From contig CALLUY010000121.1 in assembly GCA_938010615.1 (NCBI GenBank), positions 1 to 58,412 of the forward strand: a stretch of 58,412 bases of DNA. Direction: 5' to 3'. Origin of the DNA: an uncultured Pirellulaceae bacterium. Lineage in GTDB: Bacteria > Planctomycetota > Planctomycetia > Pirellulales > Pirellulaceae. Positions 11,088-42,483 of the stretch are shown one piece after another. The stretch's first letter is position 1; every line of letters starts with the position of its first letter. The position numbers and the translations under genes were made by a program. The notes beneath the pieces are model-generated. The model ran no database searches. It worked only from the letters and a program-made list of their open reading frames with translations, and was not told the DNA's origin.

Positions 11088-11147
11088 GTCAGGCTGTGCC
11101 TGAATAGCACTCGACAACAATAAGAAGTCAGGCACAGCCTGACCTAC
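11084..11147. repeat. two REP palindromes downstream of the transposase
   Basis: One copy at 11084-11103 reads forward, with its right end altered to CTGAAT. A second at 11127-11147 is inverted. The GTAG flank of the first contains the transposase stop codon. The CTAC flank of the second contains the TAG stop of selB on the other strand. The two copies face each other, forming a BIME-like pair with a 23-base spacer. Confidence 0.88.
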
Positions 11148-13057
11148 GCAAGGACTCGCAGATCGCCTTCGCGTTTGGTGAAACCGGACTCGTCGAGATA
11201 CTCGCAGATCGGCACCGCCCATTTTCGACTCGTGTCGATCAACGTACGAATGTCGCTCATCGTCATCCCGCCGTTGGCTTCCATCGCGGCACGGATTTTT
11301 GACCAAGCTTCATCGATAACTTCGGCGTGAAAGAAGTATTCGTCGTTCGCTTTAACGATGTCTCCATTTTCCGCCGCCATCGCCAGCAGTTCGGGAACGG
11401 CGTCCTTGTTTTTGGTTGCAGACTTCTGTAACTCCGCGGCGGTTGGTGGTTTTAGTCCCGCAGCATGAAGCTTAGAAAGCAGATCTTCCAGCAACACCTT
11501 CTGACCTTTGGAGAGTTTGGGCCCGAATCCAGAAAGTGCAACGGTTTTCACGTTTGAAAAAACCGTTTTCTCTTTCGTCAAATGCGAAATCACCGCATCA
11601 AGCAATTCCTTTTGCCCCAACCAGGCGAACTCGTTCTCGACGACGTTGCGCTTATGATTGAATCGCAAAGGATTGGCTTCATGCAAACGGGTCAGCGTTT
11701 TGATAACTTGAGCACCCAGCTGCTCAAACCGATCGCGGTGCATGCAAACGGTTCGGGTTTGCGAAATCGCGGTCTCAACCAGTTCGCCCGATTCCTTGAG
11801 CCGGTCATAGGCTTCCTCGAAATCAACAACTCCCGCGACGCGAGGGAAAGAGTCCGCCTTGAAAGACGCATCGTTGAGCAAATAAACGCTCGATGCTGCA
11901 CGTTCGTCACCTGAATCGGACTCCATTCGTTGCACGTGTTTCAAATCCGTTTCCGTTGGCTTCTTGATCGCCGCGGCTTCCGAATGAATGACACGTCCTC
12001 CGCCGATGGTCAAAACGGGAGACTCCAAACGAACGACAAACGGCTGATTCCAAACGGTGACCGCAGGCTCGGACAACCAAATTTGAGCAAAGCCACTTTT
12101 TCCTGGTTCGAGTTCGTTACAGTCCAGCAACCGAACATTTCCAAAAAGCTCCGCCGTGCCGACGTGAAAACGGACTCGCGTTCGATCCTTGAGCGGTTTC
12201 CTGACGCTATTGAGCAAATGCAATCGAACCGTGAGCAGTTTGGACGGAACAAGGTGCCCAACCGCTGCGAGTTCGTGGCCGCGGCCGATCTCGTTGAGTC
12301 GCACACCCGCAAGGTTGATCGCCGCACGCTGTCCGCGGTGAACTTCTTCGCTGCCGGAGTCGTGGTTCTGAATCCCGCGGATGCGAACGGAGAGCGCACC
12401 GGGCTGAACTTCAACCGGATCTCCGATGCTCAATGTTCCGCTACTGACACTTCCGGTGACGACGGTGCCGTGGCCTTCGATCGAAAACGCACGATCAATC
12501 GCCATTCGAAACGGAGCCGACTCTCGGTTGGCGACTTCCGAAGCCGAAACTTTGTCGCCGGCTTCTTTGATTGCTTTCTTTAGGTCGTCGATGCCCAATC
12601 CGGATTTGGAACTGGTGCGAATGATTGGAGCATCGTGCAAGAACGTATCCGCGACCGTTGCCCGGATTTCTTCTTCCACCATTTCCAGCCAAGAATCTTC
12701 ACACAGATCGCATTTCGTTAACGCAATCACACCGCAAGTCAGGTCCAGCAATCTCAGAATGTCGAGGTGTTCGATGGTCTGTTGCTTGACCGAATCGTCG
12801 CCGGCGATCACGAGCAGCACCATATCCATTCCGGTGGCTCCGGCGAGCATTTGTCGCACGAACTTTTCGTGACCGGGAACGTCAACCACGCCAATGTTGT
12901 AATCTTCGATCTCGAGAAAAGCATAGCCAAGCTCGATCGTGATGCCACGTTTCTTTTCTTCTGGCAATCGATCCGTGTTGGTGCCAGTGAGAGCTCCGAT
13001 CAGGGAAGTTTTGCCGTGGTCGATATGACCGGCCGTTCCCAAAATCAAATCACGCAT
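11144..13057 (-). CDS. selB: Selenocysteine-specific translation elongation factor SelB
   Basis: SelB is the GTPase that brings Sec-tRNA to in-frame UGA codons and reads the SECIS hairpin. The 637-residue protein has the G1 segment [11 protein letters not shown] at 7-17, [17 protein letters not shown] as the switch region characteristic of SelB, DVPGHEKF at 59-66 and TKCD at 114-117. It has the elongation-factor beta barrels and a long C-terminal part consistent with the winged-helix repeats. Two ATGs occur in tandem; I took the second (13057) because GGGA lies seven bases upstream. The stop codon is inside a REP palindrome. It follows the zinc-ribbon gene by 14 bases. Its presence implies that the genome uses selenocysteine, consistent with the TGA-interrupted gene at 40298-41476. 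selA, selD and tRNA-Sec are not in this window. Confidence 0.93.
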
Positions 13058-13071
13058 CATGTTTTCCCGCA

Positions 13072-13791
13072 CTAAGATTCGCGATACAGAATGGAACCAC
13101 AACCTTTGCAGAGTAGTGGCTTGCAACTGAGAATATCGCTTTTCGTTTGCTGCGTCAGCGTGATATTACAATTGCCGCATGTGCTCAAATCAGTTGCGGC
13201 AAATGTATCTTCGCCCATGGTTTTGATGTTACGCTGGTAAGGCACACGCAGATCGGAGTGTAATTTTTTCAAGGCTTCGGCAAGCTCTTCCCTAATCCGA
13301 GCGTCCTCATTTTTCATCGTTACCAATTCGGCGGCGACTTTCTTCTCGATACCGGCTGTTTCAGATTTCGCCTTCTCAAGATTGCTCTTCGCCGTTTCCA
13401 ATTCTTGTTCGAGCACGTCCAGCTTCTCAAGCGTTTCGAAAATCTCGTCGGCCTGACAGCTATTCGCTTGCTCGTCGGCAGCGATCCGGTCTTTCAATAG
13501 TTGGAACTCCTTGTTGGAATCCGCAGCATTCAATTTGCCACGAAGATCTTCCAGTTTCGCCTCACGATCTTCCAACTGAGATTGCTTGGATCTGGAATCC
13601 TTCTTCACCTCCAACAATTCCTGCTTCTTGGCTTCAAGGGCGTCAGCGAATCCTTGCTCCGTTGTTTTGACCAACCGAACTTGAATCGGTCCACGGCGCA
13701 TTCGATCAGCGATATCGGTAAGCTGTCTGAGCATTCGGTGCAGAGTTTGCAACAACGCGTAGTCAGCCTGGTCTTTCGTCTTTTCGTTCAA
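13072..13791 (-). CDS. Coiled-coil protein with C-terminal C4 zinc ribbon
   Basis: This 239-residue protein is mostly a long heptad-rich coiled coil (about residues 10-175). It ends in a four-cysteine zinc ribbon with CGNC and CKGC pairs near 208 and 230. This is the architecture of the bacterial zinc-ribbon family formerly called DUF164, often found beside nucleic-acid or translation genes. Here it precedes selB closely and probably shares its transcript. No signal peptide is visible. The family has no firm biochemical role, so I leave the function open. Confidence 0.8.
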   Translation of the reverse strand: MNEKTKDQADYALLQTLHRMLRQLTDIADRMRRGPIQVRLVKTTEQGFADALEAKKQELLEVKKDSRSKQSQLEDREAKLEDLRGKLNAADSNKEFQLLKDRIAADEQANSCQADEIFETLEKLDVLEQELETAKSNLEKAKSETAGIEKKVAAELVTMKNEDARIREELAEALKKLHSDLRVPYQRNIKTMGEDTFAATDLSTCGNCNITLTQQTKSDILSCKPLLCKGCGSILYRES

Positions 13792-34025: not shown

Positions 34026-34332
34026 GCCCGAGGCGCAGGTTTTGAAGTTGCACACTTTCAGTCACGAAGTGACGAAGTGACGAAGTGACGAAGTGACGAA
34101 GTGACGAAGTGACGACCTGTATTAGCCATGGACGCAAGTCCGTGGTTACGGTCAATAAATCGCCGCAGAGTGCCGAAGGCACGGCAGGAGCCAAGCTTTA
34201 CACGACCGCAATTTTCCTGCCGTCCTTTCAGGACTCCCGATTAACGCATCAACTTTTCCATGGACTTGCGTCCATGGCTAATACATGCCGTGCTTTCAGC
34301 ACTAAACACTGCAACTTCAAAAAGCGCAAGCG
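34026..34332. repeat. TIR-bounded palindromic element, variant interior
   Basis: The left end (CCCGAGGCGCAGGTTTTGAA, then GTTGCAC) and the right end (GCAACTTCAAAAAGCGCAAG) match the terminal repeats of the two other elements. The interior is different. It has an octamer tandem array at 34061-34115, then a perfect 20-base inverted repeat, TTAGCCATGGACGCAAGTCC at 34122-34141 and its complement at 34262-34281, around short hairpins such as GTGCCGAAGGCAC. It encodes nothing. The rest of the 33883-34472 gap holds no gene. Confidence 0.8.
34061..34115. repeat. octamer tandem repeat GTGACGAA
   Basis: About seven head-to-tail copies of GTGACGAA occur, the first reading GTCACGAA and the last incomplete. 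The unit length of eight is not a codon multiple and the array lies in non-coding DNA, so copy number may vary between strains by slippage. Confidence 0.9.
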
Positions 34333-39151: not shown

Positions 39152-40189
39152 ATGCTCGAACGCTCAATAACTCATCGCTACGACGACCCAGTCGATCTGA
39201 TTTGGATCCACGCCGCTGCGGACCTTGGGCTAAAAGTTGTTCGGTCGGCTGATGCGTATGCGGCTTACGATGGCAACGGAACTTTGACCATCTGCGATGC
39301 TACGCACTTCGACGCCGACGACTGCTTGGCACAGATGATCTTTCATGAGATCTGCCACTGGCTGGTGGCCGGCCGACGTGGCTTCAAGATGGAAGACTGG
39401 GGCCTTTCCAACCTCGACGATAGCGATCTAGTTTACGAGTACGCCGCCATTCGCGTACAAGCAGCACTCTCACGCCCCTACGGCTTACGATCGTTCATGG
39501 CGGTGACGACCGACTGGCGGCCGTACTGGGACTCGTTGCCAGAAAACCCACTGCTTGATGGAAACGATCCGGCAATCACGCTTGCTCAAGACGCTCATTT
39601 TCTCTCGCGGCGGGAACCATTCGAAGCCGTGCTCAAGCGTGCTCTTTCTGCGACGGCAACGATCGCTGATGCGGTTCGAGATTCTTCGGAGCAAAATTCG
39701 CTCTGGAAAACGACCATCGCTCGCCATCGTTTGGGCTCACTCATCCCCGAAGCCAGCGATTTAAAATGCGGCGATTGTGCGTGGGCCGTTTCAGAAGAAT
39801 CCAAGTTGGTTTGTCTCCAGCATAAGGAGTTCGAAGAAGCCGCTCCTGCGATCGAAGCCAATGAACAAGCCTGTGAAAAATGGGAAACAAAGTTCACCAT
39901 CGAAGACTGCGGTTCCTGCGGCGCGTGTTGCCGTGAAGGATTCGATCTCTTGACCGTCGCTGAAGATGATTCGTTCAAAAAGCTGCATCCGGAATTGGTG
40001 CAACTTCGCGACGATGGGACTCATTGCGTGCCGCGACCCGACGGCGTTTGCGTGGCACTGGACGGCGATGGCGACGAATCTCCTTATCGCTGTCGGCACT
40101 ATGAAGATCGACCGAAGAATTGTGGTTTGTTCGAAGTCGGCGGCGATGGCTGTCTGCAAGCAAGGCGTCGCGTTGGACTCAGCCGTTAA
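39152..40189 (+). CDS. HExxH-containing protein fused to YkgJ-type cysteine cluster
   Basis: The 345-residue protein has two parts. Residues about 1-190 contain H65-E66-I67-C68-H69, a zinc metallopeptidase-like HExxH in MIFHEICHWLVAGRRGFKMEDWGL. Residues about 200-345 are cysteine-rich: C206 and C209, then CGSCGACC at 253-260 (the YkgJ/CxxCxxCC cluster), and further cysteines in YRCRHYEDRPKNCGLFE and GDGCLQARRRVGLS. YkgJ clusters are thought to bind zinc or iron. The combination suggests a metal-handling or peptidase role, but no function is established. The start follows an AGG sequence about nine bases upstream. Confidence 0.72.
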   Translation: MLERSITHRYDDPVDLIWIHAAADLGLKVVRSADAYAAYDGNGTLTICDATHFDADDCLAQMIFHEICHWLVAGRRGFKMEDWGLSNLDDSDLVYEYAAIRVQAALSRPYGLRSFMAVTTDWRPYWDSLPENPLLDGNDPAITLAQDAHFLSRREPFEAVLKRALSATATIADAVRDSSEQNSLWKTTIARHRLGSLIPEASDLKCGDCAWAVSEESKLVCLQHKEFEEAAPAIEANEQACEKWETKFTIEDCGSCGACCREGFDLLTVAEDDSFKKLHPELVQLRDDGTHCVPRPDGVCVALDGDGDESPYRCRHYEDRPKNCGLFEVGGDGCLQARRRVGLSR

Positions 40190-40297: not shown

Positions 40298-41476
40298 CTA
40301 CTCCGCGGACTGGTAGTAGCCTTCGATCCAACCTTTCGCCCCGTGCGGAATCGCTTGGTTCTGTCTCTTGGTTGGATCAACGATCGTAAACGTGATTGCC
40401 AGCGGAAACTTTCCTTTCGGGCCCGCCCCGGTGTGCGGACCGTCGCCCCAGAACATTCCTTCGGCGGCCATATCAAATCGCGTCACTTCATCACCATCGA
40501 CTTCGATGTGACCGCAGAAGTTCGCCTCGTAGCCTCGCCTACCGTCTTCAGTCGAAAGTTTGACGGATCCTTCGATTACTCCATCGGTAACCTTCATTGA
40601 CAGCTCCTGAATTTCTTCGACGGTCCAACGCGGAGGTTCGCCACGCGTGTTGTCGATGAAATGAAAGCGAGCGATTCGTTTGGCGATCGCCTCGGGGACG
40701 CTTCCATTTGATTCGAAGGCTTTGATCAATGCAGCTTTTTCGCTTGCTTGAATCCAGAACGTGTCTTGCCCGATCGACTTTTGAAATGAAGTTTCGTGCA
40801 TGTTTTTCGGCTCCTCATAGCCGCTGAGAATTTTTGAATACACACGAAAGACCAATCCTCCGTTCGGTGGAACGATATTGAATCGCGCGTCGGGAGCCCC
40901 CGGATCAATCGCTTGGACGTCGGCGTTGGCTTCCTGATCAAATTCGCTCAATGCCTTTCGCATCATTTCTTTAACGCGATCCACATCGATGTGATTTCCA
41001 TTGAACCCCAGCAGTTTGCCACTGGCATCGCAGGCGTAGTGGCCTTGGGTCGTATGTTCGAAATCATTTCGCGGTCCTTGACCAGCGACCTTCCGATAGT
41101 ACTCACCTTTGGCATCTTTTTGCCGACGCTCGTACCATTGGTCAATCGCGACGGGAACAAAATCATCTTTCAGCATTTTGACGATTTCAGGATCGATAAA
41201 AGTCGACTCACGGTCAACGATTCCATTGTTTCACGTACAGCCCAACGGATGGCCGTCCATCGACCAGATGAAGATCGGCTTTTTCTCTTCGATCGCCACC
41301 TTTTGAGCACTCAACAGATCCAGATGCCAGTCGACCAAACTCGCATTCTCTGCGGGCACGATTGACTTCATCAGCTCTTGAAACCGATCCTCCGTTAGCT
41401 TCGTTTGAGCATTTGCCACGACGGCGAACTGCGAACAGGTGAGCAGCGCAACGAATGCAAAAAACAACTTGGACAT
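40298..41476 (-). CDS. Secreted thioredoxin-like selenoprotein (in-frame TGA at 41231-41233)
   Basis: Read through one TGA, this is a single 392-residue protein. The first 81 codons give a signal peptide (MSKLFFAFVALLTCSQFAVVANAQ). A thioredoxin-like stretch follows: LSAQKVAIEEKKPIFIWSMD, then GHPLGCT. Codon 82 is TGA. Translation then continues in the same frame with NNGIVDRESTFIDPEIV, KMLKDDFVPVAIDQWYERRQ and about 270 further residues without another stop. The strand layout after the TGA (hydrophobic FVPVAID following the active-site helix) fits a thioredoxin fold with C80-T81-U82 as a CxU redox site. A SECIS-like hairpin follows the TGA, and selB is in this window. The C-terminal 250 residues are unfamiliar. 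The start has GGAAATA upstream. A nonsense mutation is the alternative, but conservation of coding quality after the TGA argues against it. Confidence 0.82.
41202..41218 (-). promoter_or_regulatory. candidate bacterial SECIS stem-loop
   Basis: On the minus strand, 12 bases after the TGA, GTTGACCGTGAGTCGAC forms a six-base-pair stem (GTTGAC with GTCGAC, one G-U pair) and a five-base CGTGA loop. In Escherichia coli fdhF the upper SECIS hairpin is also 17 bases and starts 11 bases after UGA, with a GU in the loop; here the loop also contains GU. An outer GGA/TCC pair may extend the stem. The identity is inferred from geometry. Confidence 0.65.
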
Positions 41477-41583: not shown

Positions 41584-42483
41584 ATGAACGATTCAAGAAA
41601 TTTCCGTTGGCGAGTAGGCGGACTTGGCGAATTACTGTGGGACGTCTTTCCAACGCATCGTTGCTTAGGCGGCGCTCCGGCTAACTTCGCGTCTCATGCC
41701 GCGGCTTTGGGAGCCGACGCATTTCTGATAACCGCCGTTGGAAACGATGAACTTGGACGATTGGCAACGGCGGAACTAAGCAAACTAACGATCGACACGA
41801 CTCATGTCTCAATCAACACACACCCGACAGGATACGTTCAAGTTCAATTGGCCGATGGTGAGCCCGAGTACGATATTGCCAGCGATGTTGCATGGGATTT
41901 CTGCGATTGGAATTCGGTACTCGAACCTTTCGCGCAAACGATCGACGCGGTTTGTTTTGGCACACTCTTTCAACGATCCCGCGCCAGCCGCGAAACGACC
42001 AAACGGTTTCTTTCGGCGACACCGAAGAGCTGCCTCCGAGTCTTCGATGTAAATCTGCGTCAAGATTTCTATTCCGATGACCTCATCGTTGATTCACTGA
42101 AGCTTGCCAACGTCTTGAAGATCAACCGTGCCGAACTGCCTATCGTTCTGCGAGCCGCTGGAATGTCTGTCCATGATGAGAACTCGATTGATTCGTTGCT
42201 CGAAAAATTTGATTTGAAATTGATTGCTTTGACCCTTGGAGCAGAGGGGTCGCTCTTGGTGACGCAGGATGAAAGGAACACTTGCGACGCCCCGAAAGTC
42301 GAAGCCGTCGATACCGTCGGAGCAGGAGATTCCTTTACGGCCTGCATCGTCGCGGGAATGCTCCGCGGCATGGAGCTTTCGACCATCAATACACTGGCCA
42401 ACGAGATTGCAGCACAAGTTTGCCGGCGATCTGGAGCCGGGCCAGCGGTCAGCGACCAATTTCTTGACTCGTTTAAGTCGTGA
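41584..42483 (+). CDS. PfkB-family carbohydrate kinase (fructokinase-like)
   Basis: The 299-residue kinase phosphorylates a sugar or nucleoside. The N-terminal GELLWDVFPT, then LGGAPANFASHAAALG, is the fructokinase-type start of PfkB enzymes. The C-terminal DTVGAGDSFTA (243-253) carries the anion hole and the catalytic base D249. Fructose is the best guess because of the GE(L)xWD motif, but the substrate needs assay. It is divergent from the selenoprotein gene across 107 bases and is followed 69 bases later by a secreted beta-propeller gene on the same strand. Confidence 0.87.
   Translation: MNDSRNFRWRVGGLGELLWDVFPTHRCLGGAPANFASHAAALGADAFLITAVGNDELGRLATAELSKLTIDTTHVSINTHPTGYVQVQLADGEPEYDIASDVAWDFCDWNSVLEPFAQTIDAVCFGTLFQRSRASRETTKRFLSATPKSCLRVFDVNLRQDFYSDDLIVDSLKLANVLKINRAELPIVLRAAGMSVHDENSIDSLLEKFDLKLIALTLGAEGSLLVTQDERNTCDAPKVEAVDTVGAGDSFTACIVAGMLRGMELSTINTLANEIAAQVCRRSGAGPAVSDQFLDSFKS

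Follow-up and report, generated by a model that had tools for sequence, protein, structure and literature searches.

Selenoprotein families are commonly recognised through homologues that carry cysteine (Cys) at the position of selenocysteine (Sec), and a 2025 study that introduced deep-Sep noted that all known selenoproteins now seem to have such homologues (PMC12013277). Glycine reductase selenoprotein A (GrdA) was formerly believed to be the sole bacterial selenoprotein without Cys homologues, which have since been reported (PMC12013277), and the GOS selenoprotein families were likewise found with Cys homologues (PMC2398784). Among described families, the closest to the gene reported here is VPGUxxT (NF041382, NF041383; "OS_HP5"), a family with a UxxC motif, an MsrA-like domain at the C-terminus and many members in Cys form. 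Here we analyse a 58,412-nt stretch of DNA from an uncultured Pirellulaceae bacterium (the window), in which one gene very probably encodes an exported selenoprotein, with UGA codon 82 read as Sec by way of a downstream hairpin and a likely function as a thioredoxin (Trx)-like redox enzyme with a CxU site. The gene represents an apparently undescribed selenoprotein family that is widespread and well supported.

Positions 41476-40298 of the minus strand form a single 392-codon gene with one in-frame TGA, at codon 82. The gene starts with an ATG at 41476-41474; 81 sense codons precede the TGA (41233-41231) and 310 follow it, up to a TAG stop finishing at 40298 (Table 1). Re-reading of the window agrees with the original prediction on the position of the TGA and its context, GHPLGCT-TGA-NNG; the predicted gene coordinates also stand, and the strand, which had been left unstated, is minus. 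Standard gene callers would be expected to report two open reading frames, split at the TGA. Upstream lies a divergent pfkB-type sugar kinase gene (41584-42483, plus strand) and downstream a convergent gene for a protein with a CxxCxxCC domain (39152-40189, plus strand); hence, the selenoprotein gene is probably transcribed by itself. Across the family loci, we sought a universal operon partner and found none, only local groups; no conserved neighbour hints at a substrate. In three Verrucomicrobia loci (L088, L091 and L093), the next gene downstream overlaps by a few bases and is terpene-cyclase-like, with a CSCHH motif; this gene (L091:6068-7000 and its counterparts), in which the motif reads CFSCHH, resembles a squalene-cyclase toroid and is a possible partner. 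Elsewhere in the window, we noted an Acido-Lenti-1 small RNA (RF01687, 54.7 bits) at 34258-34303 on the plus strand.

Table 1. Features of the selenoprotein gene and the selB gene in the window
Feature	Position	Strand	Basis
Complete gene, predicted 392-residue selenoprotein	40298..41476	-	ATG to TAG with one in-frame TGA; homologues align across the TGA
Predicted N-terminal export signal, about residues 1-23, MSKLFFAFVALLTCSQFAVVANA	41408..41476	-	By eye; model helix 2-21; homologues also show hydrophobic N-termini
Thioredoxin-like domain, about residues 48-191, with CxU site C80-T81-U82	40905..41335	-	hhalign, Foldseek, AF2
Cys80, candidate resolving partner of Sec82	41237..41239	-	Cys in 122/124 contexts
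Sec-encoding TGA, codon 82	41231..41233	-	TGA in 142/143 motif-bearing relatives and 124/124 distinct stop-containing contexts
SECIS hairpin, GUUGAC-CGUGA-GUCGAC	41202..41218	-	93.6% of cells paired; contains the top covarying pair
C-terminal beta-rich domain, about residues 200-392	40301..40880	-	AF2 of the domain alone, pLDDT 87.9, pTM 0.85
selB, Sec-specific elongation factor, same contig	11144..13126	-	TIGR00475, 349.8 bits (cut-off 242.25); Pfam SelB-wing_3, Beta-barrel_SelB

With the read-through protein as query, we found matches in 37 of 148 related genomes. Each match, among those listed, contains one TGA, and translation of the loci gives a common motif, W-x-M-(D/N)-G-(H/D)-P-L-G-C-(T/V)-TGA-(N/G)-N-G. 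In an alignment of 29 sequences the TGA column is invariant, as are W71, M73, G75, P77, G79, C80, N84, G85, R89 and the QG at 144-145; one relative additional to this alignment (L009) has Ala at 79, and His76 is replaced by Asp throughout one subfamily. A profile search detected the family in 109 of 392 genomes of the phylum. Among the carriers is a cultured strain, Planctomycetes bacterium K23_9 (CP036526, locus L141). We also scanned genome contigs, the only search through which Verrucomicrobiota were sampled, and obtained 353 relatives, of which 80 were kept; all 80 have the TGA, and they come from Planctomycetota, Verrucomicrobiota and Kiritimatiellota. The original prediction had proposed examining codon 82 in homologues, and a regular expression that left this codon free matched 143 sequences, 142 with TGA and one with AGC (Ser). 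Since the loci from the 148-genome, phylum-profile and contig searches lie partly on the same contigs, a fair count is that of distinct contexts with any stop at codon 82: there are 124, and the stop is TGA in every one, confirming that it is no chance event. Nonsynonymous divergence is low before and after the TGA (dN/dS about 0.04-0.15 downstream), and both flanks are under purifying selection. We also observed that some genomes carry more than one member. The source genome has a second, divergent one (L155, G000:C107:13700-17000; MNGDPLGCV-TGA-NNG), which likewise has a single TGA and resembles the first in its hairpin region; two TGA-containing members adjoin in tandem at L017 (G114), and tandem copies also occur in G189:C42.

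A six-pair stem 12 bases beyond the TGA had been pointed out in the original prediction; we found it as stated, and it is conserved through compensatory change. The hairpin (41218-41202) has one G-U among its six pairs, starts 12 nt past the TGA and has its loop start 18 nt past it. The published bSECIS model calls for a spacing of 16-37 nt, for a G as the first or second base of the loop and for a folding energy of at most -7.5 kcal/mol (PMC13188914). The hairpin fits the model in spacing and loop G, and the single-sequence fold of the window's own hairpin is weaker than the energy cut-off, at -6.2 kcal/mol. This fold is non-significant (z = -0.59), and we rejected single-sequence folding as proof of a SECIS; the hairpin appears convincing only when relatives are compared. 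Numbering from the T of the TGA (position 1), we examined all column pairs within 75 nt in the 124 contexts. The largest pairing excess of any pair falls at 18-30 (91% paired versus 61% expected; CG, GC, UA and others), which belongs to a stem running from 17-31 to 21-27 around a loop at 22-26, that is, to the same hairpin. Among 82 less redundant sequences, the stem surpasses shuffled alignments in paired cells (93.6% versus 83.0%, s.d. 1.1), double-change cells (40 versus 12.1) and covariation score (0.393 versus 0.215), with 0 of 500 shuffles equalling the value in each case; such tests can be inflated by sequence relatedness, which is retained in controls where the stem is slid by 1-3 columns, and in these pairing falls to 18-39%. 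The loop of the family is CGUGN. Codon choice downstream of the TGA is frozen, with extreme synonymous bias: AAC encodes 117 of 120 Asn residues at +1, GAC encodes 89 of 91 Asp at +6 (98%, versus 60% in the rest of these genes), CGT encodes 104 of 124 Arg at +7 (84%, versus 15% of their other Arg codons) and TCG encodes 79 of 111 Ser at +9 (71%, versus 29% in the rest of these genes). An Rfam scan of the region returned chance matches only.

The genome encodes the machinery for Sec insertion. The gene that the original prediction had placed at 11144-13057 is indeed selB, as identified by TIGR00475, and its extent is revised to the open reading frame 11144-13126, with an approximate start. A search of the genome for selA, selD and tRNA-Sec had been suggested as a further check, and all three were found: selA on contig C95 (552 bits), selD on C68 (262.6 bits) and tRNA-Sec on C123 (65.9 bits versus a gathering score of 47). 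Among the 148 genomes, with tRNA-Sec called present above 62 bits, it occurs in 35 of 37 carriers of the gene and in 47 of the 111 genomes that lack the gene (Fisher p = 5.7e-9, genomes being taken without correction for kinship); the two carriers without a detected tRNA-Sec are 71% and 80% complete. At several loci of the Rhodopirellula/Rubripirellula group (including L081, L083, L089, L097 and L107), the gene adjoins, in opposite direction, a cluster of a selD fusion, selA and selB, recognised through TIGR00476, TIGR00474 and the C-terminal domain of SelB. Selenoprotein genes are judged by an in-frame TGA in a conserved column with coding conserved on both sides, by a covarying hairpin with bSECIS spacing and a G in the apical loop, and by the presence of selA, selB, selD and tRNA-Sec together in the genome; we found each of these, the window's own hairpin by itself being weaker than the energy criterion. 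Homologues, hairpin and Sec machinery all support the 392-residue protein, read through the TGA, that had originally been proposed.

The N-terminus of this protein looks like a Sec-type signal peptide. AlphaFold2 predicts two domains (whole model, pLDDT 91.3, pTM 0.87), with a helix that begins at residue 83, directly after Sec82, and the order of strands and helices in this confident model agrees with the Trx fold. The best PDB match found by Foldseek is 7tkv, a Thioredox_DsbH structure (probability 1.00, E 9.5e-3, with a low TM score over the whole model), and hhalign aligns residues 47-111 with the VPGUxxT Trx domain (probability 90.7, E 1.2e-6). These matches lend moderate strength to the thioredoxin-like domain of the original prediction. 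Its second domain also exists in the model, at about 200 residues and not the 250 proposed; a PDB fold search with this domain alone gave scattered beta-barrel matches, none with E below 1e-3, and a sequence search of solved structures with the protein and the profile gave chance matches only. The predicted CxU motif is present, its Cys being nearly yet not absolutely conserved (122/124): a few Sec members lack Cys80, such as L158, which has Ala there and keeps Sec. In the hhalign register, Cys80 lies opposite the Sec of VPGUxxT and Sec82 near the second Cys of UxxC; hence, U82 could be either the nucleophile or the resolving residue. A count by eye, made backwards from the helix that follows, gives a different register, with Sec82 at the first of the two UxxC redox positions.

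The lack of any Cys homologue among the relatives sampled is the most unusual feature of the family, and it was beyond the reach of the original prediction. Sec-less relatives from the phylum search have Ser at the Sec position or a rebuilt stretch (TGDEN, TSSAG, TSKAG, TSTNG, PSVNT or PGNGS), and Cys80 is gone too. A DNA pattern for the motif with Cys codons at the site had no matches in 397 genomes of the order; with TGA at the site instead, the pattern matched 24 times, in 22 of these genomes. Cys at the Sec position of homologues, a usual supporting criterion that is not strictly defining, was thus absent among the relatives sampled. On a tree of 99 proteins built with FastTree, four changes are required to account for the Sec-less members, each forced by well-supported branches; their direction depends on the root, with Sec present on both sides of the midpoint, and the tree suggests about four losses of Sec, to Ser or other residues. 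The claim that there is no Cys form applies to the sampled genomes, and one is conceivable elsewhere. In lineages that lose Sec, we saw no replacement by Cys, and selenium chemistry therefore seems to be required at the active site. We lean, by a little, towards the stronger view that no Cys form exists anywhere: the reaction would be impossible with sulfur, and on loss of Sec to Ser or other residues the function would change or die. The deep-Sep method may miss selenoproteins without Cys homologues, according to its authors (PMC12013277); given this filter on Cys homologues, it is understandable that the family stayed unnoticed. Since discovery through Cys/Sec pairs is blind to Cys-less families, more may exist.

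We considered whether the TGA is a real stop, in a pseudogene, through a sequencing error or between two proteins, one of 81 residues and a second from the ATG at 41176. The two open reading frames expected from gene callers would suit this reading, to which we give next to no credence: the same TGA occupies the same codon in more than 120 distinct sequences of three phyla, dN/dS is low in both flanks, and protein conservation continues unbroken across it, whereas the internal Met is not conserved. The pseudogene and two-gene readings were rejected on the conserved column, the dN/dS and the unbroken alignment. An in-frame TGA does not by itself name the inserted residue, and it might be read as another amino acid, if the code were reassigned or a near-cognate tRNA brought about programmed readthrough. 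However, TGA terminates other genes in the window, the hairpin has bSECIS geometry and covariation, and the gene tracks tRNA-Sec and adjoins the Sec operon in some genomes. With TGA a normal stop for other window genes, and given the hairpin and the tRNA-Sec link, we rejected a code change; insertion of some other residue is very improbable.

A selenoprotein could also use its Sec-Cys-His site for metal binding, structure or transfer instead of redox catalysis. The conserved (H/D)PLGCxU cluster is compatible with such a role, as are the invariant QG (144-145), in a loop that appears equivalent to the cis-Pro loop of many Trx proteins, and the persistence of Sec-less relatives in which the remainder is conserved. 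In the AlphaFold2 model, however, Sec is placed where the first Trx helix begins, and His76 is Asp across a whole subfamily; we regard a non-redox site as unlikely, though deserving of attention. The protein might otherwise be simply a divergent member of VPGUxxT, with which it shares a homologous Trx domain and genomes. We consider membership improbable, since the best-scoring relative reaches 19.7 bits where the cut-off is 275, the motifs differ, and the MsrA-like second domain and Cys forms belong to VPGUxxT alone; our query itself scored 14.7 bits versus 275 (NF041383) and 12.2 versus 350 (NF041382).

We therefore favour an exported, redox-active selenoprotein and infer the following steps. 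SelB and Sec-tRNA would decode UGA codon 82 as Sec, directed by the downstream hairpin, as the comparison of relatives suggests. After export, Sec82 would directly precede the first helix of the Trx-like domain, where the catalytic nucleophile is normally found, and Cys80 would probably be its resolving partner in a CxU selenenylsulfide. The protein would most likely act as a selenol-based oxidoreductase or peroxidase of the cell envelope, and the family-specific C-terminal beta domain may bind a partner or substrate.

The statement in the original prediction that no described selenoprotein family has this layout holds for Pfam and NCBIfam release 20 (June 2026), where no model reached its cut-off, and for the 119 entries of a 2026 review table, where no family matched; a text search for the motif in open-licence literature gave no match, and a description elsewhere is possible. 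The family adds a widespread, predicted exported selenoprotein to those of planctomycetes and their relatives. It shares the Cys-x-Sec motif with other CxU selenoproteins (UshA-like NF041198, Trx-like Sec.1 PF13192, rhodanese form 3 and ferredoxin-thioredoxin reductase), which are unrelated by sequence (no match at E<=0.1, NCBIfam or Pfam). Thioredox_DsbH/DUF255 (PF03190), the family of the top Foldseek match, and Thioredoxin_7 (PF13899) match weakly around the active site, below gathering scores; for PF03190 the score is 17.1 bits versus 27, without the CxxC, and DUF255 proteins, unlike the new family, have a large multi-domain architecture. VPGUxxT is closer, with a distantly related, homologous Trx-like domain, Sec after a P(L)G turn and shared genomes, including the source genome. 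There, two TGAs interrupt the frame of its type-2 gene (L165:1501-2355, minus strand; G000:C175:12827-13681): one falls in VPGU, and the other stands at the position of the catalytic Cys in the MsrA-like domain (MYUFW; Cys in L163), as also seen in L161 and L168. The 2026 review gives a single Sec for VPGUxxT, and in some planctomycetes type 2 may carry two. The new family has neither the VPGUxxT motif nor the MsrA-like second domain; it differs in its CxU site, in its own C-terminal domain and in the lack of Cys forms among the relatives sampled. In this last respect it recalls the unrelated GrdA, once thought to be without Cys homologues, and it bears on the question of whether Cys can ever fail to replace Sec: with hundreds of members, the family is a candidate counter-example in which U-to-C replacement is directly testable.
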